A stretch of DNA of 64,000 nucleotides, taken from contig NZ_KZ119600.1 of the NCBI RefSeq assembly GCF_002153425.1, forward strand, positions 686,418-750,417, read 5' to 3'. Shown here in pieces: positions 1 to 63,142 of the stretch. The notes beneath the pieces were generated by a model. It had not been told where the DNA came from and did not search any database. It saw only the letters and a list, made by a program, of their open reading frames with translations. A program made the position numbers and the translations under genes. Numbering within the stretch: the stretch's first letter is position 1; every line of letters begins with the position of its first letter. This DNA comes from Litchfieldia alkalitelluris. Its GTDB lineage: Bacteria; Bacillota; Bacilli; Bacillales; Salisediminibacteriaceae.

Positions 1-165
1 CACGGAATGGAGACTGAAATAGAGCGGAGGAGCGATTTGAGTCTTCATTTTCACGAAATGGAGACTGAAATAGAGCGGTGGTGTGAATTGAGTCTTCATT
101 TTCACGGAATGGAGACTGAAACAGAGCTGGGACAGGATTTGAGTCTTCATTTTTTTAATTTGAGG
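1..165. repeat. Palindromic tandem array A1 (51-bp period, GGAGACT family)
   Basis: Three units repeat with an exact 51-bp step: GGAGACTGAA starts at about 9, 60 and 111. Each unit also carries TTGAGTCTTCATT, an imperfect inverted copy of AATGGAGACTGAA, so adjacent units form a stem of about 13 bp with a 7-base loop. The stretch is open in one frame only because 51 is a multiple of 3, so I do not call it a gene. The array continues past the left edge of the window. The same family opens the array at about 61300. Confidence 0.85.
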
Positions 166-1384: not shown

Positions 1385-1584
1385 GAAATGCGGACTGAAA
1401 AATGAGTATGTATGAAGTTCAGTCCGCAATCTTAGAAAATGCGGACTGAAAACTGAGAATGTATGAAATTCAGTCCGCAATCTTAGAAAATGCGGACTGA
1501 AAACTGAGAATGTATGAAATTCAGTCCGCAATCTTAGAAAATGCGGACTGAAAAATGAGTGTGTATGAAGTTCAGTCCGCAATC
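1385..1584. repeat. Palindromic tandem array A2, left part (51-bp period, GCGGACT family)
   Basis: Four units with GCGGACTG at 1391, 1442, 1493 and 1544. Across the unit junction TTCAGTCCGCA and TGCGGACTGAA form a perfect 11-bp inverted repeat around an 11-base loop. The array is broken at 1584 by an IS3-family insertion and resumes at 3130 in register. It stays open as a minus-strand frame only because of the 51-bp period. Confidence 0.9.
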
Positions 1585-1730
1585 TGGTCCTCTGTCAAGA
1601 AAGTAGACAAAAATTAGAGAGAAATATCGGTTATATGAGTTGATTTTACAAACTTCCGTTAAAGAATTCTGATACTTAATATTCTTATAACTTGGTTAGA
1701 TGTCCATCAGCTGGGTTCTCTCGTTTCTTC

Positions 1731-1845
1731 GCAACTTGACACGGAGCCTCTGCGGGCATGTGTTCCTAGCCACGAAGCCACATAGGTTACAGAACCTGTG
1801 GCTCGCCAAGGAGGCTAACATACCCGCCACTCCGTGTAAAGTTGC
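1731..1845. repeat. Large palindromic element inside the IS
   Basis: 115 bp. The outer arms GCAACTTGACACGGAG (1731-1746) and CTCCGTGTAAAGTTGC (1830-1845) pair with one mismatch. Inner arms GCGGGCATG and CATACCCGC follow, and an inner hairpin AGCCACATAGGTT / AACCTGTGGCT caps the structure. Read on the minus strand it contains a TGGCGGGT...AGCCTCCT signature that recurs in the element at 48649-48795. It lies between the orfB stop and the left IS end. Confidence 0.6.
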
Positions 1846-1865
1846 TTTGTGTCTGCCACTTGAGA

Positions 1866-2753
1866 TTATGCGGCACTTTCTCCTTTGTCTGCTTTTTGCT
1901 TATTGCCATGGAGTTTTTCGTACTCATTTGGCGATACATAGCCTAATGTCGAATGGCTCCTTCTTGCGTTATAAAAGCTCATGATGTACTTCCATATTTC
2001 CTTAGCTGCTACTTCACGGTTCTCAAACTTCTGTCTGTACACTAGCTCTTTTTTAAGTGAGGAAAAAAATGACTCCATGCACGCATTGTCATAACAGTTT
2101 CCTTTACGACTCATACTTATTTGCATGTTACATTCCTTAAGCCGATCAATGTAATCCTGAGAGGTATACTGACTTCCTCGGTCAGAGTGGTGGATTAACC
2201 CTTCCCCTGGTTTTCTTGAACTAATAGCTCGTTCCAAAGCTCTTAATGGCAATTCTTTTGTCATCGTTTTATCTGTAGCCCACCCTATGATTTTTCGGGA
2301 GAACAAATCCATCACTGTCGCTAAGTACAACCAACCCTGCATTGTCCAAATATACGTAATATCCGTTACCCAAACACTATTTGGTTTGTCTACTTCAAAC
2401 TGTCTATTTAATAGATTAGGGTAAATTGGATTTTGATGCTTAGAATCCGTTGTTACCACAAACTTTTTCTTCGGTGTTGCTCGTAACCCCATTTCCCGCA
2501 TATATTTACCAACAGTTCTTTCAGCTATTTTAATCCCAAGTTTCCATAATTCCCTGGTAATCCTAGGGCTACCATAAACAGACCTATATTCAAAGAATAG
2601 CCTACGGATCTTTGCCATTAACCTCTTTTTTCTTTGCTTACAAGGCAAGTTGTTTTCTTTGCTGGTTTTTATCCATTTATAATATCCACTCTTTGAAACC
2701 TTTAGGACTTCGCACATCTTCACAACTCGAAATTCCTTTCGGTGCTCATACAT
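1866..2753 (-). CDS. IS3-family transposase OrfB (DDE catalytic subunit)
   Basis: 295 residues. The N-terminal HTH_21-like region is followed by an rve integrase core. The catalytic triad is visible as Asp in VWVTDITYI, Asp in IHHSDRGSQY and Glu in NACMESFFSSLKKE. The C-terminus carries the usual ARRSHSTLGYVSPNEYE motif. It is normally made as an OrfAB fusion: the orfB frame is open upstream of its ATG back to the A_AAA_AAG slippery site in orfA. No internal stop or frameshift is seen. Confidence 0.93.
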   Translation of the reverse strand: MYEHRKEFRVVKMCEVLKVSKSGYYKWIKTSKENNLPCKQRKKRLMAKIRRLFFEYRSVYGSPRITRELWKLGIKIAERTVGKYMREMGLRATPKKKFVVTTDSKHQNPIYPNLLNRQFEVDKPNSVWVTDITYIWTMQGWLYLATVMDLFSRKIIGWATDKTMTKELPLRALERAISSRKPGEGLIHHSDRGSQYTSQDYIDRLKECNMQISMSRKGNCYDNACMESFFSSLKKELVYRQKFENREVAAKEIWKYIMSFYNARRSHSTLGYVSPNEYEKLHGNKQKADKGESAA

Positions 2754-2767
2754 AAAGTTAAACTTAA

Positions 2768-3073
2768 CTATCGGCCTTTCATGAAGATGTGCGCCGCCTT
2801 TTTTATAATCTCATTCTCCTCCTTTAATTCATTAATTTGATCTAGCAGTTCTTTCTCACGTTTCTTGTACTCTCCAGGTGTAATATATTCTGTTCCTTCT
2901 TTACTTTGCTTTAACTTTTCCCGATACTTTTTTACCCAGCGATATATGTTTTTGCTTGAGATATCCATTTCACTACTAACCTCTGTAGCTTTCTTTCCTT
3001 CTTCTACTACTAACTTAGCGATATACTCTTTAAACTCCTCATCATAGGTTTTAATCATTTTGACACGCTCCAT
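2768..3073 (-). CDS. IS3-family transposase OrfA (helix-turn-helix subunit)
   Basis: 101 residues. An N-terminal helix-turn-helix (about 15-50, ending SSKNIYRWVKKY) is followed by a leucine-zipper-like helix (LLDQINELKEENEIIKKA). A likely downstream start is Met6 (MIKTYDEEF). The frame contains the heptamer A_AAA_AAG at plus-strand 2798-2804, in the zero frame of orfA, where a -1 shift would join OrfA to OrfB to give the active transposase. Confidence 0.9.
   Translation of the reverse strand: MERVKMIKTYDEEFKEYIAKLVVEEGKKATEVSSEMDISSKNIYRWVKKYREKLKQSKEGTEYITPGEYKKREKELLDQINELKEENEIIKKAAHIFMKGR
2798..2804 (-). other. -1 programmed frameshift site (A_AAA_AAG)
   Basis: On the minus strand the codons ATA-AAA-AAG of orfA contain A_AAA_AAG. 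After a -1 slip the frame runs without a stop through GGC GGC GCA into the orfB ATG at 2753. This is the standard way IS3-family elements make OrfAB. Confidence 0.75.
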
Positions 3074-3129
3074 TTCTAGATTATGGTTTTATTCTCTCCA
3101 TAACGTGTCCACTTTATAGTCTAGACCCA

Positions 3130-3290
3130 ATCTTAGGAAATGTGGACTGAAAAATGAGTATGTATGAAGTTCAGTCCGCAATCTTAGAAAATGCGGACTG
3201 AAAAATGAGGTGGTATGAAATTCAGTCCGCAATCTTAGGAAATGCGGACTAGATTTCGAGTTAGAGTAGAATCTAGTCCGCAAAACTAGA
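3130..3290. repeat. Palindromic tandem array A2, right part (GCGGACT family)
   Basis: Three units (about 3141, 3192 and 3243) continue the array interrupted by the IS. The last unit has changed arms, TGCGGACTAGATT and AATCTAGTCCGCA. They still pair perfectly over 13 bp although the inner bases differ in both arms from the usual CTGAA/TTCAG. Confidence 0.88.
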
Positions 3291-4703: not shown

Positions 4704-7259
4704 ATGGACGAGTATAAAGAACGGCTCCAACGAATGATTGATCAACATAACATATTGGAAAAGGAGCTAGAAAGTGCACTGAAGGAGTATGAATCCCACG
4801 ATTTTATGAAAGAAAACAAAGAGCTACGAGAAAAGTATGAGGAATTTAAGAAGCAACTTCAAGTTCTTAAAGAGAAAGAAGCAACTCTACGCATCGAAAA
4901 CGGAAAGCTGCGATCAGCGCTTCAAGAGCAAATATTGGATGAAAAACTCAGTATTCTAAAAGTCTCCCAGGAAAAACTTGATACATATTTTCAAAAAAGA
5001 TCCGGTTCCCATAAAAATGAGTTACAGTTGTTTGAAGAGGAGACCCAAAGGAAAATAGATAAATTAGTAAAGGAAGCGGAAGTAAATCTAGGCAAGGAAA
5101 AGCATCAAGTTTATATGGATCTTAAAAAAGTATCTCATGAATTAAATGAACGAATTGCCCAACATCGAGCGGAACAGGCAAAGAAAGAAAGGGAATTATT
5201 AAGGGATACTGCGAATCAATTTCTGGAGCATGGAGAGGGAGAGATCCCTGAAGAAGTGATTCAAAAACGTATAAAACAAAATCAAGTTGAAATGAAAATC
5301 GGGCTGAACTGGATTAACAGACTAGGAATCCTATTGATTATTCTAGGAGTTGGCGCAGCGTTTCGTTATTCATATGCAAACTGGTTTAATGATTATTTCA
5401 AAGGTGGGTTATTCTTTCTCCTTGGACTCATCATGATTGCTGGTGGAGAGTTCTTCAGTCAACGTCAGAAACGCACCTTCGCTTTAGGGTTACTTGGTGG
5501 AGGAATAGGAGTCCTATACGGTTCTATCTTTTTTAGCTATTTCTTACTTGAGATCATCGGATTATTTCCGGCTTTATTATTGTCCGTGTTAGTAACAGCA
5601 ACGGCAGTTGTTTTATCTGTTCGATATCAGTCCCGAACGATTTGTTCTTTTGGACTCATCGGTGGGTACTTGCCACTATATTCGTATATTCTTGCCTTCG
5701 GTCTAGAAGGGGCAGCTGTTTATATGGCTATGGGGTACTTATTGATCTTAAACTTGTCGATCTTGATCATCGCTTTCCAGAAACATTGGACAGTCGTACA
5801 CTATATAAGTTTTGCATTTAACATTCCGTCTATGTTTGTACTCATTGCCCTTTCATCAAGTGATTACATGAATTTGATCTATTCTGTATTAACCTTCCTA
5901 ATGTATCTTGGTATCACGATTGCCTATTCGTTTACAAAGAAGGTTGCACTTAAACTTCTGGATGTCATTTTGTTAGGCTTGAATACATTTATCAGTTGTG
6001 TCGTTCTTTACTGGCTATTCAACCAGCTTGCATGGGATGATTTTAGAGGTCTTCTCGCTTTAATATTTAGCGTTGTTTACGTTGGATTAGGGAAGTTTGT
6101 AATGACGTATATGCCTAAAGAGCGAATAACAATGGTCTTGTTTTATGGAACAGCACTAACATTTGCAATTCTAATGATTCCATTCCAGTTCCAATTTGAG
6201 TGGGTCGTACTTGGGTGGCTGATCGAAGGGGTTGTCCTAATCGCTTATGCACATTGGGCAAAAATAAGGTCGGTGGAACGGGCAGGTTGGCTTATTTTCG
6301 TACTCTGTCTCAGCATTTTTTACATTGAAGCATATTGGAATGTCGTATGGAGTTGGGATATTAGCACGCAATTTAACCTGAAATACTTCTCAGTAATGCT
6401 CGGTATGTTATTGATCATGGTGTACTATTTGCTCCAACAACAAAAGTTGGGAGCAACAGCAAATGTTTTCCCAAGCGTTAGGGGATTCATTGATTATTAT
6501 AAATACTTTGTATTAGGAAACTTGTGGTTCTATATGATTTATCAATCACGTTACTTTTACTATGAATGGGTACCAGTAGATTTCACACATTTTTCCTTTT
6601 ATGAATGGATGATGATGTCATTTTTAACAATCGGTTTGTCTTATGCACTTACGAAAATTCCATTATTATATGACCGCACCGTTAAGTATTATTGTTTAGT
6701 GCTTTATGGCATTGGTTCTTTCCTTGGGCTGATGGTGACGATGTTTTTGCCAACATTACAACAAGAGTTCAGTCAAAACACGACAGTTGAGTTTCTTGCC
6801 TTAGGGCTGTTAATCGTATTTAATGTTCTTGTCTTTTTTAGCGGTAGAGATCTCTTACTTACTATCATTCGTCAAAGGTATCAAAACTTGGAACTCTATC
6901 CACTAATTCTAGGGGTTTACTTATTAGGGGTAATGGCTGCCTTTTTAACCGTACAATTTCACCTAGGTGATGTGAGTCTATTATTTACTTCCGTCTTCCT
7001 AGTGATGGCCATCAGCTATATCTCTTATGGCTTTATGAAAAAATTTGTGTATATCCGCCGGCTCGGTTTAGGATTAACGATCCTTTCCACAGGAAAACTC
7101 ATACTTTATGACTTGTCTTTTTTAACCGAAGGCAGCAAAATAATAGCTTATTTCAGCTTTGGAGTTGCTTTGCTTGGTATTTCCTACATGTATCAAAAGG
7201 TCTCGAGTCAGCAAGATGGCCAATCGAAAGAGGAGTCAGGGAAAACGTTAGGGCAATAG
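4704..7259 (+). CDS. Large polytopic membrane protein, DUF2339-like
   Basis: 851 residues from the ATG at 4704, chosen because GGGGGT sits about 8 bases upstream; an in-frame TTG at 4689 would add five residues. Residues 1 to about 190 are highly charged and predicted coiled coil. The remainder is a long series of hydrophobic segments (20 or more), starting after IGLNWINRLGILLIILGVG. This layout of a coiled coil plus very many membrane helices matches DUF2339 proteins, whose function is not established. It stands alone between terminators. Nothing points to a transported substrate. Confidence 0.72.
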   Translation: MDEYKERLQRMIDQHNILEKELESALKEYESHDFMKENKELREKYEEFKKQLQVLKEKEATLRIENGKLRSALQEQILDEKLSILKVSQEKLDTYFQKRSGSHKNELQLFEEETQRKIDKLVKEAEVNLGKEKHQVYMDLKKVSHELNERIAQHRAEQAKKERELLRDTANQFLEHGEGEIPEEVIQKRIKQNQVEMKIGLNWINRLGILLIILGVGAAFRYSYANWFNDYFKGGLFFLLGLIMIAGGEFFSQRQKRTFALGLLGGGIGVLYGSIFFSYFLLEIIGLFPALLLSVLVTATAVVLSVRYQSRTICSFGLIGGYLPLYSYILAFGLEGAAVYMAMGYLLILNLSILIIAFQKHWTVVHYISFAFNIPSMFVLIALSSSDYMNLIYSVLTFLMYLGITIAYSFTKKVALKLLDVILLGLNTFISCVVLYWLFNQLAWDDFRGLLALIFSVVYVGLGKFVMTYMPKERITMVLFYGTALTFAILMIPFQFQFEWVVLGWLIEGVVLIAYAHWAKIRSVERAGWLIFVLCLSIFYIEAYWNVVWSWDISTQFNLKYFSVMLGMLLIMVYYLLQQQKLGATANVFPSVRGFIDYYKYFVLGNLWFYMIYQSRYFYYEWVPVDFTHFSFYEWMMMSFLTIGLSYALTKIPLLYDRTVKYYCLVLYGIGSFLGLMVTMFLPTLQQEFSQNTTVEFLALGLLIVFNVLVFFSGRDLLLTIIRQRYQNLELYPLILGVYLLGVMAAFLTVQFHLGDVSLLFTSVFLVMAISYISYGFMKKFVYIRRLGLGLTILSTGKLILYDLSFLTEGSKIIAYFSFGVALLGISYMYQKVSSQQDGQSKEESGKTLGQ

Positions 7260-7265
7260 AAAAAA

Positions 7266-7308
7266 GTAGTGCAGGTCAAACTCAGCACGAGTAATTCCTG
7301 CACTACAT
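7266..7308. terminator. Hairpin between convergent genes
   Basis: GTAGTGCAGG and CCTGCACTAC form a perfect 10-bp stem between two genes that face each other. The T tracts are weak on both sides, so it is a probable bidirectional terminator. Confidence 0.6.
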
Positions 7309-7338
7309 CTTCCTTCAAGTATCATGATATTCCGCGAC

Positions 7339-8373
7339 CTAAGCCCTAATCTCCTGTCTCATAAAAATGACGTACGATAAAGCAAAGCACAGGAGAGTTG
7401 CAGCAATTAACCCAGTTAGTTGTGGCCAGATGAGAAGGAGGCTCTGACCTAGGGGTAATGTGCTAGGGATAGCCCCCACCACTTGTTCCATCGTTAATGG
7501 GCCAACAGAACGAATAGACGGTGTTAATAAGATTGTTGTTATATCACTGAATAGGTAGTTAGGGTTTAAGTTTGATAAAACTTGAGTAAATCTGCCATCA
7601 GCTTCATTTCCAATACCACCAATAATGTTGACTATCATGGAATAAAAGACACCGAAAAACAACCATATGGCAATACATGAAATGGCTGAAGTGGCCGGCT
7701 GCTTAAACCTGATAGAAAACAAGATGGATAGATTCAGCCAAAAACCGATGTAAACGATGCTCATGAGCATGAATACAATAATGCGCCAGAATTCATCCCA
7801 AGTAGGCGGCAGACCAGTTGCTAAAATACCGAAAGCCATTACGAGAAAACCTAGAGTGAAAATTAATACTGCAATCATAATTAGTGTAGCTATATATTTG
7901 GCATTGATTAAATAATCACGTTGAATTGGCTGAGATACGATTCTGCTTAGCGTACCCCTATTTCGCTCAGCATTAATAGCATCAAATCCTAGGGCAATTC
8001 CTAGTAATGGACCTAGAAAACTAATAAATGTGATAAAAGGTGGCAACGTGCCGTCAGGGTCAGAGATCGTAAATAGTCTCAAGAACAAAAAGGCATTATT
8101 GGCATCAATATTAGCTGCAACGTCTCGTATGTTTGTTAAGGCAGTGTAGAGTGAGCCGAGACAAGTGAGTAAAATAATCAGGAACAGAATCACAAATCGC
8201 CAACTCCTGATTTGGTCAGCCATCTCTTTTTGCACAATCACCCAAAAAGGATGTGGAGCCCTTTCACCCTGGTTTCTTTCTTCAATATGTGCATCTGTAT
8301 TTGCCTCGTCTCCATTCTTTAATTTGACCTTTTTTCCAGTGAAACTAAGTCGTTCTAGGAATGGGAGCTTCAT
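7339..8373 (-). CDS. ABC transporter permease (ABC-2 type)
   Basis: 344 residues from the ATG at 8373, preceded by AAGGAGGTG at good spacing. A longer frame starting at 8412 has no such site. A cytoplasmic N-terminus (about 1-60) is followed by about six hydrophobic segments typical of ABC2 membrane proteins, with the conserved ERNRGTLSRIVSQPIQRD segment after the second one. The start overlaps the end of the ATPase gene by 29 bases, so the two are translationally coupled. It would form the membrane half of an exporter together with the NEW3-domain protein encoded first in the operon. The substrate is unknown. Confidence 0.88.
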   Translation of the reverse strand: MKLPFLERLSFTGKKVKLKNGDEANTDAHIEERNQGERAPHPFWVIVQKEMADQIRSWRFVILFLIILLTCLGSLYTALTNIRDVAANIDANNAFLFLRLFTISDPDGTLPPFITFISFLGPLLGIALGFDAINAERNRGTLSRIVSQPIQRDYLINAKYIATLIMIAVLIFTLGFLVMAFGILATGLPPTWDEFWRIIVFMLMSIVYIGFWLNLSILFSIRFKQPATSAISCIAIWLFFGVFYSMIVNIIGGIGNEADGRFTQVLSNLNPNYLFSDITTILLTPSIRSVGPLTMEQVVGAIPSTLPLGQSLLLIWPQLTGLIAATLLCFALSYVIFMRQEIRA

Positions 8374-12132: not shown

Positions 12133-12195
12133 TTGGGGCGGGGCATTATTGAGAGTGGAGCGGATAGTTCACTTTGTGAGGTAATCCCTTTGATT

Positions 12196-12865
12196 TCGGG
12201 CACTATGACGTGGTTATAGTGCCTTTTGTATTTGTCTCATTGAGGTTTCGGGCGCTATTGATGGTGGATAGTGCCCGGAGCGAGGTGTGCTTATTTGATT
12301 CGGGCACTATTGGGAGCGGATAGTGCCCGGAGCGAAGTGTGCTTCTTGGTTTGGGGCACTAATGATGGTGGATAGTGCCCGGAGCGAAGGGTGTTTATAT
12401 GTTTGGGGCACTATTGAGGTCGGATAGTACCCGGAGCGAGGTGTGCTTGTATGTTTCGGGCACTATTGAGAGTGGATAGTGCCCGGAGCGAAGTGTGCAT
12501 ATATGTTTCGGGCACTAATGATGGTGGATAGTTCCCGGAGCGAGGTGTGCATATATGTTTCGGGCACTAATGATGGTGGATAGTACCCGGAGCGAGGTGT
12601 GCTTGTATGTTTCGGGCACTATTGAGAGTGGATTGTGCCCGAAGCGAGGTGTGCATGTTAGTTTCGGGCACTATTGAGGTCGGATAGTTCCCGGAGCGAG
12701 ATGTGCATGTTAGTTTCGGGCACTATTGAGGTCGGATAGTGCCCGAAGCGAAGTGTGCTTCTTGGTTTGGGGCACTGTTTGATGGTGGATAGTGCCCGGA
12801 GCGCGCGACCCACGCAGTTTTTGGGCACTAATGCGATGGAATAGTTTTCTTCACCTCAAACCAAA
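12196..12865. repeat. Palindromic tandem array B1 (52-bp period, CGGGCACTA family)
   Basis: About 12 units plus degenerate ends. Each has CGGGCACTA and TAGTGCCCG arms around a loop of about 12 bases (for example TTGAGAGTGGA), then a locus-specific linker GGAGCGAGGTGTGC plus a T-rich stretch. The period is 52 bp. Loop variants alternate between units (TTGAGGTCGGA, ATGATGGTGGA, TTGAGAGTGGA). It follows the anti-sigma gene and precedes the DUF1287 gene. No separate terminator was found, so the first palindrome may serve. Confidence 0.92.
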
Positions 12866-22307: not shown

Positions 22308-22344
22308 GCTGGGGAGCTGGAGTTTGTGCTGGGGTGGGTGTTGC

Positions 22345-23190
22345 TCCGGGCACTAAGACAAAGAAATAGTGCCCGAAGGTCTTAACTCGCCGTTGCTCCG
22401 GGCACTAAGAGCAAGCAATAGTGCCCGAAGGTCTTAACTCGCAGTTGCTCCGGGCACTAAGAGCAAGTAATAGTGCCCGAAGCGCCTAACTCGCCGTTGC
22501 TCCGGGCACTAAGAGCAAGTAATAGTGCCCGAAGGTCTCAACTCGTAGCTGCTTCGGGCACTAAGAGCAAGGAATAATGCCCGAAGGCCTTAACTCGCAG
22601 TTGCTCCGGGCACTAAGAGCAAGTAATAGTGCCCGAAGCGCCTAACTCGCCGTTGATCCGGGCACTAAGACAAAGCAATAGTGCCCGAAGGTCTCAACTC
22701 GTAGCTGTTTCGGGCACTAAGAGCAAGTAATAGTGCCCGAAGCCGCCATCTCACAGTTGCTCCGGGCACTAAGAGCAAGTAATAGTGCCCGAAGCAGCTA
22801 ACTCGCCGTTGATCCGGGCACTAAGACAAAGCAATAGTGCCCGAAGGTCTCAACTCGTAGCTGTTTCGGGCACTAAGAGCAAGTAATAGTGCCCGAAGCC
22901 GCCATCTCACAGTTGCTCCGGGCACTAAGAGCAAGTAATAGTGCCCGAAGCCACCATCTCAGAGTAGCTCCGGGCACTAAGACAAAGAAATAGTGCCCGA
23001 AGGCCTTAACTCAGAGCTGCTCCGGGCACTAAGAGCAAGAAATAGTGCCCGAAGGTCTTAACTCGCCGTTGCTCCGGGCACTAAGACAAAGGAATAGTGC
23101 CCGAAGCCGCCATCTCACAGCTGCTCCGGGCACTAAGAGCAAGAAATAGTGCCCGAAGCCCTCAAATCGCCGTTGCTCTGGGCACTATCA
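22345..23190. repeat. Palindromic tandem array B2 (52-bp period, CGGGCACTA family)
   Basis: Seventeen units, the last degenerate. Each has CCGGGCACTAAGA and TAGTGCCCGAAG around a loop of about 10 bases (AGCAAGTA or CAAAGCA types), then a private linker such as GGTCTTAACTCGCAGTTG. A block of three units at 22655-22810 is repeated almost exactly at 22811-22966, which shows recent expansion by whole units. It lies right behind the met operon terminator. Confidence 0.93.
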
Positions 23191-31839: not shown

Positions 31840-32702
31840 GTAAAGGTAAAATAAATTGAGTTTAATTGCCCGAAGCAGCTGGTTGGCGCGTGCAAAGGTA
31901 AAATAAATCGGGTTTAATTGCCCGAAGCAGCTGGAGGAAGCATGCAAAGGTAAAATAAACCGAGTTTAATTGCCCGAAGCATGTGGAGAGAGCGTGCAAA
32001 GGTAAAATAAACCGAGTTTAATTACCCGAAGCAGCTGGTTGGCGCGTGAAAAGGTAAAATAAATCGAGTTTAATTGCCCGAAGCATGTGTCGAGCGCGTG
32101 CAAAGGTAAAATAAATTGAGTTTAATTGCCCGAAGCAGCTGGTTGGCGCGTGTAAAGGTAAAATAAACGGGGGTTAATTGCCCGAAGCCTGTGAAGAGAG
32201 CGTGTAAAGGTAAAATAAACCGTGTTTAATTGCCCGAAGCAGCTGGAGGAAGCATGTAAAGGTAAAATAAACCGTGTTTAATTGTCCGAAGCATGTGGAG
32301 AGTGTGTGTAAAGGTAAAATAAACCGTGTTTAATTGCCCGAAGCCTGTGGAGAGCGCGTGCAAAGGTAAAATAAATTGAGTTTAATTGCCCGAAGCAGCT
32401 GGTTGGCGCGTGCAAAGGTAAAATAAACGGGGGTTAATTGCCCGAAGCCTGTGAAGAGAGCGTGTAAAGGTAAAATAAACCGTGTTTAATTGTCCGAAGC
32501 ATGTGGAGAGTGTGTGTAAAGGTAAAATAAACCGTGTTTAATTACCCGAAGCAGCTGGTTGGCGCGTGCAAAGGTAAAATAAATTGAGTTTAATTGCCCG
32601 AAGCCTGTGGAGAGAGCGTGTAAAGGTAAAATAAACCGTGTTTAATTGCCCGAAGCCTGTGTAGAGCACGTGCAAAGGTAAAATAAACCTAGTTTAGCTG
32701 CC
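31840..32702. repeat. Palindromic tandem array C1 (52-bp period, GGTAAAATAAAC family)
   Basis: Seventeen units with the pattern AAAGGTAAAATAAACCG and AGTTTAATTGCCCGAAGC, then a variable linker (AGCTGGTTGGCGCGTGC, CTGTGGAGAGAGCGTGT and others). AAATAAAC and GTTTAATT form a short-loop dyad with one mismatch. The second half, TTGCCCGAAGC, resembles the right arm of family B. The period is 52 bp. The same linker types recur in blocks, showing unit-block duplication. Confidence 0.92.
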
Positions 32703-35758: not shown

Positions 35759-35801
35759 GGCAGTAGAACGAGTAGTTTCGTTCTACTGTTCTTTTTTGTG
35801 T
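35759..35801 (+). terminator. Rho-independent terminator
   Basis: CAGTAGAACGA and TCGTTCTACTG form a perfect stem followed by TTCTTTTTTG. It ends the response regulator gene about 170 bases after the stop. Confidence 0.9.
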
Positions 35802-35829: not shown

Positions 35830-36264
35830 GCTGAGTTTAATTGCCCGAAGGAGTTGGAGGGGGGCGCAAAGGTAAAATAAATCGAGTTTAATTGCCCGGA
35901 GCAACTGGAGGAAGAGCGTAAAGGTAAAATAAACTGAGTTTAATTGCCCGAAGCCGTTGGAGGAAGAGTGTAAAGGTAAAATAAATCGGGTTTAATTGCC
36001 CGAAGCAGGTGGAGAAATCGTGTAAAGGTAAAATAAACCGGGTTTAATTCCCCGAAGCAGTTGGAGGAAGAGCGTAAAGGTAAAATAAACTGAGTTTAAT
36101 TGCCCGAAGCCGTTGGAGGGGGCGGGCAAAGGTAAAATAAATCGAGTTTAATTACCCGGAGCAGTTGGAGGAAGCGCCCAAAGGTAAAATAAATCGAGTT
36201 TAATTGCCCGAAGCAGTTGGAGGAATCGTGTAAAGGTAAAATAAACTGAGTTTAATTGCCCGAC
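35830..36264. repeat. Palindromic tandem array C2 (52-bp period, GGTAAAATAAAC family)
   Basis: Eight full units plus a partial one, with the same core as array C1 (GGTAAAATAAA...GAGTTTAATTGCCCG) but private linkers (AGTTGGAGGAAGAGCGT types). It lies between the response regulator terminator and the cyd promoter region. Confidence 0.92.
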
Positions 36265-42798: not shown

Positions 42799-42843
42799 AC
42801 AAAGTGCTCCCTGTCATAAAAGTGATGGGGAGCACTTTTATTT
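42799..42843 (+). terminator. Rho-independent terminator of the cyd operon
   Basis: AAAGTGCTCCC and GGGGAGCACTTTT pair around a loop of about 15 bases and are followed by ATTTATT. Confidence 0.9.
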
Positions 42844-42865: not shown

Positions 42866-43800
42866 AGGGATAGTGCCCGAAGCCCGTGGCTCTCAGCAGT
42901 TCCCGGCACTATGAAGCCGAGATAGTGCCCGAAGCCCGTGACTCGAAGAAGCTCCGGGCAGTATGAAGCCGAGATAGTGCCCGAAGCCCGTGGCTCGTAG
43001 AAGCTCCGGGCACTATGAAGCCGTGAAAGTGCCCGAAGCAAGTGGCGCGGATATGCTCCGGGCAGTATGAAGCCGAGATAGTGCCCGAAGCCCGAGGCTC
43101 GCAGAATCTCCGGGCACTATGAAGCCGTGAAAGTGCCCGAAGCAAGTGGCTCGTAGAAGCTCCGGGCACTAAGAAGCCGAGATAGTACCCGAAGTGCGTG
43201 GCGCGGATATGCTCCGGGCACTAAGAAGCCGAGATAGTGCCCGAAGCGCGTGGCGCGGATCTGCTCCGGGCCCTAAGAAGCCGAGATAGTGCCCGAAGCC
43301 CGTGGCTCGTAGAAGCTCCGGGCACTATGAAGCCGTGAAAGTGCCCGAAGCAAGTGGCTCGTAGAAGCTCCGGGCACTAAGAAGCCGAGATAGTACCCGA
43401 AGTGCGTGGCGCGGATATGCTCCGGGCACTAAGAAGCCGAGATAGTGCCCGAAGCGCGTGGCGCGGATATGCTCCGGGCACTAAGAAGCCGAGATAGTGC
43501 CCGAAGCCCGAGGCTCGCAGAATCTCCGGGCAGTATGAAGCCGAGATAGTGCCCGAAGCCCGTGACTCGTAGAAGCTCCGGGCACTAAGAAGCCGAGATA
43601 GTGCCCGAAGCCCGTGACTCGTAAATGCTCCGGGCACTATGAAGCTGTGAAAGTGCCCGAAGCCCGTGACTCGCAAATGCTCCGGGCACTATGAAGCTGT
43701 GATAGTTCCCGAAGCCTGCGCCCTGAAGCACCTCCGGGCACTAACAAGCAGGAATAGTGCCCGAAGTCCGCGCACCGCAGCACCTTCGAGCACTAACATC
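42866..43800. repeat. Palindromic tandem array B3 (52-bp period, CGGGCACTA family)
   Basis: About eighteen units. CTCCGGGCACTATGAAG and GATAGTGCCCGAAG pair around a loop of about 9 bases (GAAGCCGAG), followed by a private linker such as CCCGTGGCTCGTAGAAG. Linker types (CGTGGCGCGGATATG, CGAGGCTCGCAGAAT and others) recur in order at distances that are multiples of 52. It lies directly behind the cyd terminator and before the terminator of the minus-strand GH5 gene. Confidence 0.93.
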
Positions 43801-43834
43801 AAAAAAAATACCGGGCGGTTTTTGCCCGGTATAC
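43801..43834 (-). terminator. Rho-independent terminator of the cytoplasmic GH5 gene
   Basis: On the minus strand ACCGGGC and GCCCGGT pair around AAAAACC and are followed by ATTTTTTTT. Confidence 0.88.
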
Positions 43835-52672: not shown

Positions 52673-52826
52673 GGTGTTGTTTTTTGGTGTTGAGCAAACT
52701 TCTTGGTCTGAGTTTAAGTTGATAAGCGCACGCACGCGAAAAATTTATGTGTTTAAGTGTTGCATACTAAGGAACAGTTTTTGAATTTTGGCACGGGAAT
52801 AGGGCGATAAGGTATAAAGCAAGGTC

Positions 52827-53238
52827 ATACCGACAGATTTGAAGATTTGAAAATGAAAACAGTCGATAAGAGGGGTTCATACCGACAGATTTGAAGATTA
52901 GAAAAGGAAAACAGTCGATAAGAGGAGCTCATACCGACAGATTTGATGTTTGAAAACGGAAAACTGTCGATAAGAGGGGTTCATACCGACAGATTTGAAG
53001 ATTAGAAAAGGAAAACAGTCGATAAGAAGGGCTCATACCGACAGATTTGTAGTTTTGAGAATGAAATCTGTCGATAAGAGGGATTCATACCGACAGATTT
53101 GAAGATTTGAAAATGAAAACAGTCGATAAGAAGGGCTCATACCGACAGATTTGAAGATTTGAAAATGAAAACAGTCGATAAGAGGAGCTCATACCGACAG
53201 ATTTGAGATATTTCCACATCAAACAGTCGATAAGCCAA
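52827..53238. repeat. Palindromic tandem array D (52-bp period, CCGACAG family)
   Basis: Eight units. Each has ACCGACAGATTTG and AAACAGTCGATAAG around about 15 bases, then GAGGGGTTCAT. In the fifth unit CGACAGATTT and AAATCTGTCG pair perfectly; in the others two arm positions differ. The array lies between the lacI-type gene terminator and the cellulase promoter region. Confidence 0.92.
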
Positions 53239-61299: not shown

Positions 61300-63077
61300 T
61301 CCGAATTCGAATGGAGACTGAACTGGGGTAGGGAGGCTATTTGAGTCTTCATTTTCAAGGAATGGAGACTGAACAGGAGTTGCAAAGCGATTTGAGTCTT
61401 CATTTTCCCAGAATGGAGACTGAACTGACTCTGGGTCCTGTTCAAATTTATTCGCATTCAGTGGTTTTAAGGACTAGATTTAGGCTTGTTATTTATTCTA
61501 GTCCGCATTCTATGAAAATGCGGCCAAGGATTTGTATTTCCATCAAAGTTAGTCCGCATTCTATGAAAATGCGGCCAAGGATTTGTATTTCCATCAAATC
61601 TAGTCCGCAATCTGTGAAAATGCGGCCTAAGATTTGCATTTCCATCAAAGTTAGTCCGCAATCTGAGAAAATGCGGACTGAGATTTGTATTTCCATCAAA
61701 GTTAGTCCGCAATCTGAGCAAATGCGGCCTGAGATTTGGATTTCCATCAAAGTTAGTCCGCAATCTGAGCAAATGCGGCCTAAGATTTGCATTTCCATCA
61801 AAGTTAGTCCGCAATCTGAGAAAATGCGGCCTAAGATTTGCATTTCCATCAAAGTTAGTCCGCAATCTGAGAAAATGCGGCCTGAGATTTGTATTTCCAT
61901 CAAAGTTAGTCCGCATTCTATGAAAATGCGGCCAAGGATTTGTATTTCCATCAAAGTTAGTCCGCATTCTATGAAAATGCGGCCAAGGATTTGTATTTCC
62001 ATCAAATCTAGTCCGCAATCTGTGAAAATGCGGCCTAAGATTTGCATTTCCATCAAAGTTAGTCCGCAATCTGAGAAAATGCGGACTGAGATTTGTATTT
62101 CCATCAAAGTTAGTCCGCAATCTGAGCAAATGCGGCCTGAGATTTGGATTTCCATCAAAGTTAGTCCGCAATCTGAGCAAATGCGGCCTAAGATTTGGAT
62201 TTCCATCAAAGTTAGTCCGCAATCTGAGCAAATGCGGCCTAAGATTTGGATTTCCATCAAAGTTAGTCCGCAATCTGAGCAAATGCGGCCTAAGATTTGG
62301 ATTTCCATCAAAGTTAGTCCGCAATCTGAGCAAATGCGGCCTAAGATTTGGATTTCCATCAAAGTTAGTCCGCAATCTGAGCAAATGCGGCCTGAGATTT
62401 GTATTTCCATCAAAGTTAGTCCGCAATCTAAGAAAATGCGGCCTGAGATTTACATTTCCATCAAAGTTAGTCCGCATTCTATGAAAATGCGGCCAAGGAT
62501 TTGTATTTCCATCAAATCTAGTCCGCAATCTGAGCAAATGCGGCCTAAGATTTGGATTTCCATCAAAGTTAGTCCGCAATCTGAGAAAATGCGGACTGAG
62601 ATTTGGATTTCCATCAAAGTTAGTCCGCAATCTGAGAAAATGCGGCCTGAGATTTGTATTTCCATCAAGGTTAGTCCGCAATCTGAGCAAATGCGGCCTA
62701 AGATTTGCATTTCCATCAAAGTTAGTCCGCAATCTGAGAAAATGCGGCCTAAGATTTGCATTTCCATCAAAGTTAGTCCGCAATCTGAGAAAATGCGGCC
62801 TGAGATTTGTATTTCCATCAAATCTAGTCCGCATTCTATGAAAATGCGGCCAAGGATTTACATATCCATCAAATCTAGTCCGCATTCCGGGAAAATGCGG
62901 CCAAGGATTTGCACTTTCATCAAACCTAGTCCGCATTCTATGAAAATGCGGACTAAGAATTGCATTTCCATCAAATCTAGTCCGCAATCTGAGAAAATGC
63001 GGCCTGAGATTTACATTTCCATCAAACCTAGTCCGCATTCCGATCAAATTCGGCATAGGATTGCACTTCCCTCAAAT
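61300..63077. repeat. Palindromic tandem array A3 (51-bp period; GGAGACT units then 31 GCGGACT units)
   Basis: Three units of the GGAGACT/GAGTCTTC family (about 61311-61435) are followed from 61497 by 31 units of 51 bp with AGTCCGCA...TGCGG(A/C)CT and the spacer GAGATTTGTATTTCCATCAA. A block of eight units (408 bp) is repeated: units 1-5 equal units 9-13. Units 14-17 are four identical copies and units 6-8 recur as 24-26. Because the unit is 17 codons long, frames stay open for up to 1.7 kb on both strands. The predicted peptides are pure repeats without ribosome binding sites and are not called genes. Confidence 0.95.
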
Positions 63078-63142
63078 CTGCGCTCCTAACCAAGACAACT
63101 ATGATTAACAGAATCCACTCGGATCGGAACTTTTACACTTAA

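Follow-up and report, generated by a model that had tools for sequence, protein, structure and literature searches.

Introduction

Subirana and Messeguer reportedly described 52-nt tandem repeats of Bacillus and Firmicutes in JB in 2020. According to the main text of their 2021 IJMS paper (PMC8161180), these repeats combine a constant size with a variable sequence and have no known function. Repeats of 51-53 nt are described there as non-coding, with several families per genome and species-specific sequences, and short signals "and their reverse" were often noted in the 52-nt units. Among B. coagulans strains the arrays are conserved in part only (PMC8161180), and transcription of B. coagulans arrays is among the findings reported in PMC8625621. 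Dyad geometry, arm covariation, replication polarity, origin bias and IS targeting are absent from the main text of PMC8161180, supplements aside, and the searched literature, which did not cover the 2020 paper, gave no analysis of 52-nt repeats in terms of dyads, covariation, polarity or origin. Neither a function of the 52-nt repeats nor a reason why their size is constant has so far been described.

REPs are intergenic palindromes that serve as targets of insertion sequences, and IS3-family elements with PF01527 that target REPs, such as IS1397, ISKpn1 and ISPsy8, are already known (PMC1525189). Y1 transposases, as outlined in PMC6006769, work on the lagging-strand template. Like REP, BIME and REPIN elements, the arrays analysed here are many-copy intergenic palindromes in tandem; unlike those elements with their RAYT (TnpA_REP), they have a 51/52-nt unit with two dyad axes, and the RAYT-like genes of the genome are unflanked by them.

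KOPS, SRS and Chi are polar chromosome motifs, oriented along replication and flipping at origin and terminus. The orientation of the 51-nt arrays likewise tracks replication and switches at origin and terminus; they differ from these single short motifs in forming arrays and in being rich near the origin. The sites of Noc, RacA and ParB are a model for protein-bound sites that organise the chromosome.

Results

Array A2 and other arrays of the window

The window is a stretch of 64,000 nt, positions 686,418-750,417 of the 4.87-Mb main contig of the Litchfieldia alkalitelluris genome (G000). It contains about ten arrays with period 51 or 52:

1..153, + strand: 51-nt array of the GAGTCTTCATT / AATGGAGACT subfamily, homologous to A2; its start may precede the window
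1387..1584, + strand: left part of array A2, about four units of 51 nt with TGCGGACTGAA / TTCAGTCCGCA dyads
1585..3129, - strand: IS3-family insertion sequence in an A2 spacer, 1545 bp, with TGG...CCA ends
1866-2753 (orfB) and 2768-3073 (orfA), - strand: reading frames of this element, Pfam rve, HTH_21 and HTH_Tnp_1
3130..3283, + strand: right part of A2, three units, the last with a 13-bp dyad, 3243-3255 / 3270-3282
12193..12830, + strand: 52-nt array of the CGGGCACTA family, first unit degenerate
22340..23187, + strand: 52-nt array of the CGGGCACTA family
31842..32696, + strand: 52-nt array of the TTTAATTGCCCGAAG family, dyad non-significant (P=0.23)
35833..36263, + strand: 52-nt array of the TTTAATTGCCCGAAG family, dyad non-significant (P=0.61), directly preceded by a terminator-like hairpin, 35759-35790
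42869..43804, + strand: 52-nt array of the CGGGCACTA family, flanked by terminator-like hairpins at 42801-42838 (+) and 43808-43832 (-)
52825..53234, + strand: 52-nt array of the ACCGACAG / CTGTCGAT family, dyad P=0.03
61309..61425, + strand: 51-nt array of the GAGTCT subfamily
61499..63076, + strand: 51-nt array of 31 units, AGTCCGCA / TGCGGCCT subfamily

A2 is a single 51-nt array, 1387-1584 plus 3130-3283, interrupted by the IS3-family element at 1585-3129. Its seven units of 51 nt have the layout TGCGGACTGAA-18-TTCAGTCCGCA-11. An earlier note on this DNA had viewed A2 at 3130-3290, to which the array is not confined. Its statement that A2 units pair TTCAGTCCGCA with TGCGGACTGAA held at 3131-3283, though one arm of the first unit is TGTGGACTGAA, and the 13-bp pairing it gave for the last unit was found as an exact dyad. 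The arms of this odd last unit are similar to those of an array at 992 kb of the genome (GAATCTAGTCCGCA..TGCGGACTAGA), so its paired changes may reflect a subfamily difference and not mutations in place. A CRISPR reading of A2-type arrays was rejected, as both parts of the unit repeat within the array and there are no unique spacers.

A2 and its kin are members of the known 51-53-nt class of Bacillus tandem repeats. A2 has the period of the class, at least four units and high regularity; some other arrays have two or three units only. The stronger tandem repeats in the sampled stretches of the genome had mostly period 51/52 and multiples. The array entries comprised 23 of 51 nt, 27 of 52 nt and one of 53 nt; higher-order periods of 156, 153 and 104 were also seen. 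(In all counts out of 41 or 51 entries A2 is entered twice.) Arrays were non-coding, 37 of 41 entries lying in gaps between called ORFs when ORFs mostly within arrays were omitted, and a period of 52 is no multiple of 3. Several species-specific families were present: seven groups and one singleton at 64% identity, some with common sequence pieces. The GCGGACT dyad occurred at 67 places in this genome and in none of eight same-genus genomes. Two of the B. cellulosilyticus families shown in PMC8161180 match, by eye, arrays of the same-genus relative G007. The share of divergent gene pairs was 3/37 for arrays against 107/548, which was non-significant (P=0.085), and one of the three was made by the IS3-family element.

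The array at 61499-63076 is crossed by long ORFs on both strands, 61341-63089 (+) and 61467-63056 (-). Because the period 51 equals 3 x 17 these were taken as by-products of the repeat, as were their Pfam matches, some under and some over the cut-off. At 12198-12224 the degenerate first unit of the array at 12193-12830 is also a terminator-like hairpin; its core is that of the array (GGGCACTAT/ATAGTGCC), and it is a possible seed of the array. In scans for terminator-like hairpins, sites were overall no commoner than in shuffles. The window also contains a SAM riboswitch (RF00162, 14058-14169) and a Bacillaceae-1 RNA (RF01690, 48677-48746).

An insertion sequence within arrays of different cores

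The junctions of the IS in A2 show a duplicated 3-bp ATC, at 1582-1584 and 3130-3132. In 1.46 Mb of DNA from the same genome the element occurs four times, in three complete copies that are identical and one with an internal deletion:

1585-3129 of the window
6715-8257 of sampled stretch L068
5224-6766 of sampled stretch L182
8394-8869 of sampled stretch L084

All four copies in the sampled DNA lay within arrays, which make up 30,575 of the 1,244,000 bases (2.5%) of the survey stretches. Two of the four copies, those in L068 and L084, are free of selection bias, since the window was fixed beforehand and L182 had been picked partly for its arrays. The host arrays belong to the 51-nt family (two), the TGTCCGC family and the CGGGCACTA family and thus have three dyad cores, and the insertion point within the unit differs between copies. 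Like IS1397, ISKpn1 and ISPsy8, the element belongs to the IS3 family, has a PF01527 OrfA and is confined, in the sampled DNA, to palindromic repeats. Unlike them it occupies arrays of three different cores; with four copies in the sampled DNA, a preference for arrays as targets is putative.

Interrupted palindromes with conserved arms

Dyads were assessed by comparing the best stem of the consensus unit with shuffles; this replaced a statistic over all unit pairs that was too blunt. Of the 51 sampled array entries of the L. alkalitelluris genome, where some stretches had been picked for their arrays, 42 had an interrupted palindrome as their unit (P<=0.05). In Heyndrickxia coagulans the dyad was significant in 19 of 22 entries, nearly all of one family, and in G007 in only 3 of 15. 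Two entries of 101-nt repeats from G003 were excluded from this test. The 35 L. alkalitelluris entries with P<=0.01 had arms of 7-17, a short loop of 3-15 and a long loop of 11-30, the total of 51/52 nt amounting to about five helical turns.

When two A2 units were folded as single DNA strands, -24.9 kcal/mol was obtained for the + strand (z -7.7) and -23.9 for the - strand (z -8.5), and none of 200 shuffles did equally well. The array pieces 42869-42972 (z -2.7 and -2.2) and 1-102 (z -3.5 on +, -0.9 on -) folded less strikingly than A2.

In 27 of 29 L. alkalitelluris arrays diversity was lower in the arms than in the loops (0.067 vs 0.184, P=7e-8); in G007 one of three arrays had stems that varied less than the loops. 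The H. coagulans family carries standing mismatches: pairs 14/34 and 17/31 were unpaired in 32 and 39 of 55 units, respectively. A sequence constraint on the arms is shown, and pairing as such only partly shown. Units in or beside H. coagulans arrays at L214:3255-3301 and L204:2843-2889 have TGCCGGGTATCTT / AAGATACCCGGCA arms, and the dyad of the L214 unit is longer than those within arrays.

Covariation between the arms

The observation that compensatory changes keep the palindromes paired was partly confirmed: dyads exceeded chance, whereas covariation did so in the 51-nt family only. An alignment of 61 distinct units from 16 arrays of this family had a covariation score of 0.179. The shuffles gave 0.104 +/- 0.008, none of the 500 reaching the observed score, and sliding the partners gave no more than 0.120; such scores are inflated when units are related. 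The alignment comprised 60 units, from the 82 listed of 102 distinct units, and window:3212-3262, which was added by hand; A2 was counted as one array, and one of the 61 rows is the A2 unit that had prompted the finding. Cells changed on both sides numbered 48 vs 19 in shuffles. There was no rise in the number of pairs with two-sided changes (6 vs 6.5) or in pair types (15 vs 16.0), which argues for few events, between subfamilies. Most of the two-sided changes were at pairs 11/41, 17/35 and 18/34; a few more were at 9/43, 10/42 and 12/40. With one consensus per array, and one row excluded, the variable pairs of the 51-nt family totalled 147 vs 135.6 expected (P=0.012).

When more units were aligned, as the earlier note had proposed, and compared with shuffles, the arms thus covaried in the 51-nt family and varied independently in two others. 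The CGGGCACTA family (nine arrays) had no covariation excess (54 vs 60.1, P=0.99). Nor did the H. coagulans family (0.082 vs 0.085; 349 of 500 shuffles as high), whose alignment held 55 of 182 distinct units, taken from the 90 listed and found by likeness to a reference; one of them, L203:5723-5769, looks like a chance match. A test of the family F52b was disregarded, as one row had been placed on the other axis.

Distinct stem variants within arrays numbered 184: 174 were one-sided, four two-sided and unpaired, and six two-sided and paired. In the array at 4.3 kb another core, CCTCA/TGAGG, is compensated in two units, and the two remaining units of the four aligned read CCACA/TGAGG, unpaired. 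The claim that the GGAGACT and GCGGACT families differ at three core positions in both arms (pairs 17/35, 18/34 and 12/40) was overstated. One pair went from C-G to T-A and is compensated; another is two-sided but leads to T.G, which is not a Watson-Crick pair, and a further one is G.G in 8 of 17 arrays. Selection on the hairpin or dyad, which the earlier note had offered, along with arm-to-arm copying, as a reading of paired change, gains some support from the covariation in the 51-nt family and from arm conservation, but the events are few and one-sided variants dominate. Compensatory change is therefore partly supported, and rests on a few subfamily-level swaps.

Orientation along replication

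The sign of the GC skew changes near 2.47 Mb and noc is located at 4.7585 Mb; about 74% of called genes are on the leading strand. The asymmetric GAGTCT-type dyad GAGTCTTCATTN{5,9}AATGGAGAC had 42 matches in the genome, and all 42 pointed along the direction of replication: + at 4.6 kb-2.35 Mb and at 4.78 Mb, - at 2.86-3.94 Mb. These matches form 17 loci, 17/17 polar (P=1.5e-5 under random orientation; P=0.006 if orientation merely tracked the 74% of leading genes). The ten loci outside the arrays that had given rise to the polarity idea gave P=0.001. With the GTCCGC/GCGGCC pattern, 97 of 100 were polar among the matches listed, the exceptions there being one A2 edge unit and two units at 992 kb. 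The 19 of 119 matches outside those listed were all reverse, and the forward matches were all (66/66) on the right replichore. By homology, 18 of 18 entries of the 51-nt family agreed. The 51-nt arrays at 184 and 219 kb have neighbour genes that are both on the opposite strand, yet their orientation is that of replication.

Other families of the genome were not strictly polar (7:2, 5:3, 3:2), and those found in one orientation (5:0, 3:0, 2:0) were each confined to one replichore. The H. coagulans loci were not strictly polar either, 19 of 28 pointing one way (P=0.09).

Single stem changes, read on the fork-direction strand, gave T.G 52 times vs A.C 33 times (P=0.0007 under random array orientation). 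The T.G share expected from loops was 0.47, with a bootstrap interval of the difference of 0.06 to 0.24. No excess was seen on the plus strand regardless of replichore (41:44). The 51-nt (28:18) and 52-nt (24:15) arrays showed the same tilt, each non-significant, and H. coagulans showed none (44:42). In 46 of 51 entries the unpaired linkers, read on the fork strand, were more than 0.5 purine, against a background of 59-61% of intergenic 51-nt windows that are purine-rich; whole units were purine-rich in 14/15 cases in G007 and 14/22 in H. coagulans. The T.G excess or the purine bias could partly be a strand mutation bias, although the loops serve as a control. Polarity and T.G excess suggest that in this species a single-stranded form is linked to replication, and the H. 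coagulans data argue against generalising this.

A Chi-like reading of AGCGG, the Chi sequence of B. subtilis, was rejected: in arrays it was found 70 times vs once by strand, but 59 of the 70 came from five TGTCCGC-type arrays, and 43 other 5-mers were ahead of it by number of arrays.

Arrays in the chromosome

With the origin position set from noc, and with six stretches picked for arrays excluded, arrays were present in 12 of 21 stretches of the origin-near half of the L. alkalitelluris chromosome vs 6 of 33 of the far half (P=0.0067). Stretches added after the idea of an origin bias had arisen gave 4/4 vs 3/16 (P=0.007). The corresponding numbers were 8/19 vs 1/13 in G007 (P=0.05) and 3/4 vs 1/3 in G002, which had too few stretches and where L064, at first omitted without good reason, is included. 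Non-divergent gaps numbered 38.3 vs 32.2 per 100 kb and were not scarcer in the far half, so the excess near the origin is not explained by fewer intergenic gaps. The GAGTCT subfamily, which extends to the terminus, is an exception to the excess. For one H. coagulans family, 9, 5, 2, 11 and 1 loci were counted by fifth of the distance from noc. There is no gradient; the poor fifths are the terminal one (1 of 28 loci, P=0.015) and the middle one.

Discussion

The reading that fits best, held tentatively and short of probable, is a satellite that works through a single-stranded hairpin, coupled to replication. A2 is an intergenic satellite array of the 51-53-nt Bacillus class with an interrupted palindrome as its unit. 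The 51-nt unit would be handled as a single-stranded hairpin on the fork-direction strand, the lagging-strand template, and a replication-coupled process, either single-strand mobilisation or hairpin-dependent copying and expansion at the fork, would spread and homogenise the arrays. If the hairpin is the recognised feature, the arms would be conserved and the purine-rich linkers would remain unpaired, and paired changes would stem from leaps to a subfamily that has a different core and not from continuous compensation. The polarity of the 51-nt family, the T.G excess on the fork strand, the purine linkers and arm conservation speak for this reading. Against it, H. coagulans has dyads without strict polarity or T.G excess and with only 14/22 purine-rich units, other families of the same genome have mixed orientation, G007 has dyads in 3/15, the origin-proximal excess is not predicted, and the RAYT-like genes are unflanked. 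A wider version is doubtful: that 51/52-nt satellites are replication-coupled single-strand elements, whose lagging-template hairpins spread, expand and orient arrays or mark the direction of replication near the origin, and which an IS parasitises by recognising the dyad and not its sequence.

The dyads might instead be recognised as duplex, by one or more dimeric DNA-binding proteins on two half-sites; phased arrays of five turns would then organise the origin-proximal chromosome, and paired change would mark a new half-site specificity. Half-sites conserved in both arms, even with the standing mismatches of H. coagulans (14/34, 17/31), the constant 51/52 period, the denser arrays near the origin in L. 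alkalitelluris (P=0.0067) and G007 (P=0.05) and the poor terminal fifth of H. coagulans (1/28 loci, P=0.015) agree with such binding. It is nevertheless unlikely on balance: at least six distinct cores exist in one genome at the 64% identity threshold, the 51-nt family has a polarity that a symmetric site does not need, the GAGTCT subfamily is not depleted at the terminus, H. coagulans lacks a graded fall (9, 5, 2, 11, 1 loci), and a search, which covered noc only, found no candidate protein. Rather unlikely, too, is a neutral satellite, expanded by slippage and unequal exchange, in which hairpins promote slippage, and arm-to-arm copying and strand-dependent stability yield palindromes and polarity without function. 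One-sided changes do predominate within arrays, the periods 156, 153 and 104 suggest exchange, and arrays are partly conserved only among B. coagulans strains, as described in the main text of PMC8161180. Neutrality does not account for the roughly threefold lower diversity of arms than of loops (0.067 vs 0.184) or for unlike sequences with the same period in two genera, and copying would predict an arm covariation that H. coagulans does not show. Least probable, and in our view improbable, are strings of hairpins that act in RNA (stability, sponge or termination) after co-transcription with neighbour genes. The strand with the T.G excess is indeed also the sense strand of most genes, the array at 12193 opens with a terminator-like unit, and array transcription in B. 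coagulans is reported in PMC8625621. But terminator-like hairpins separate gene from array at 35759 and 42801 and one starts the 12193 array, the two 51-nt arrays at 184 and 219 kb oppose both neighbours, no Rfam family reached its gathering score over the arrays of the window, and the T.G excess is absent from H. coagulans, where transcription was reported.

The near-exceptionless replication direction of one family is a new clue to a known, unexplained repeat class. Together the dyad, the polarity of one family, the enrichment near the origin in two species and an IS found in arrays only (in the sampled DNA) lead to testable predictions on the strand and the process involved.

Noc sites were dropped as a yardstick for the arrays because they are too few: TTTCCCGGGAAA, the core of the Noc binding site, had one exact site in the L. 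alkalitelluris genome and two in G007, and was absent from the array cores. Mobilisation of the arrays by the genome's own RAYT-like genes was weakened as an idea. None of the four such genes has flanking arrays of its own, 6-7 kb on either side of three of them being array-free and the closest array to the fourth being about 7 kb off, and in H. coagulans a Y1 transposase was found only as a fragment. A single unit of the 51-nt family lies about 4 kb from one RAYT-like gene. A recurring GGTTACCTGGTAACT-like sequence is present on both sides of one RAYT-like gene (L183:6906, L183:7767-7770) and AGAACCGTCCCCAT precedes another (L182:14376); these are perhaps the true REPs of the two genes.
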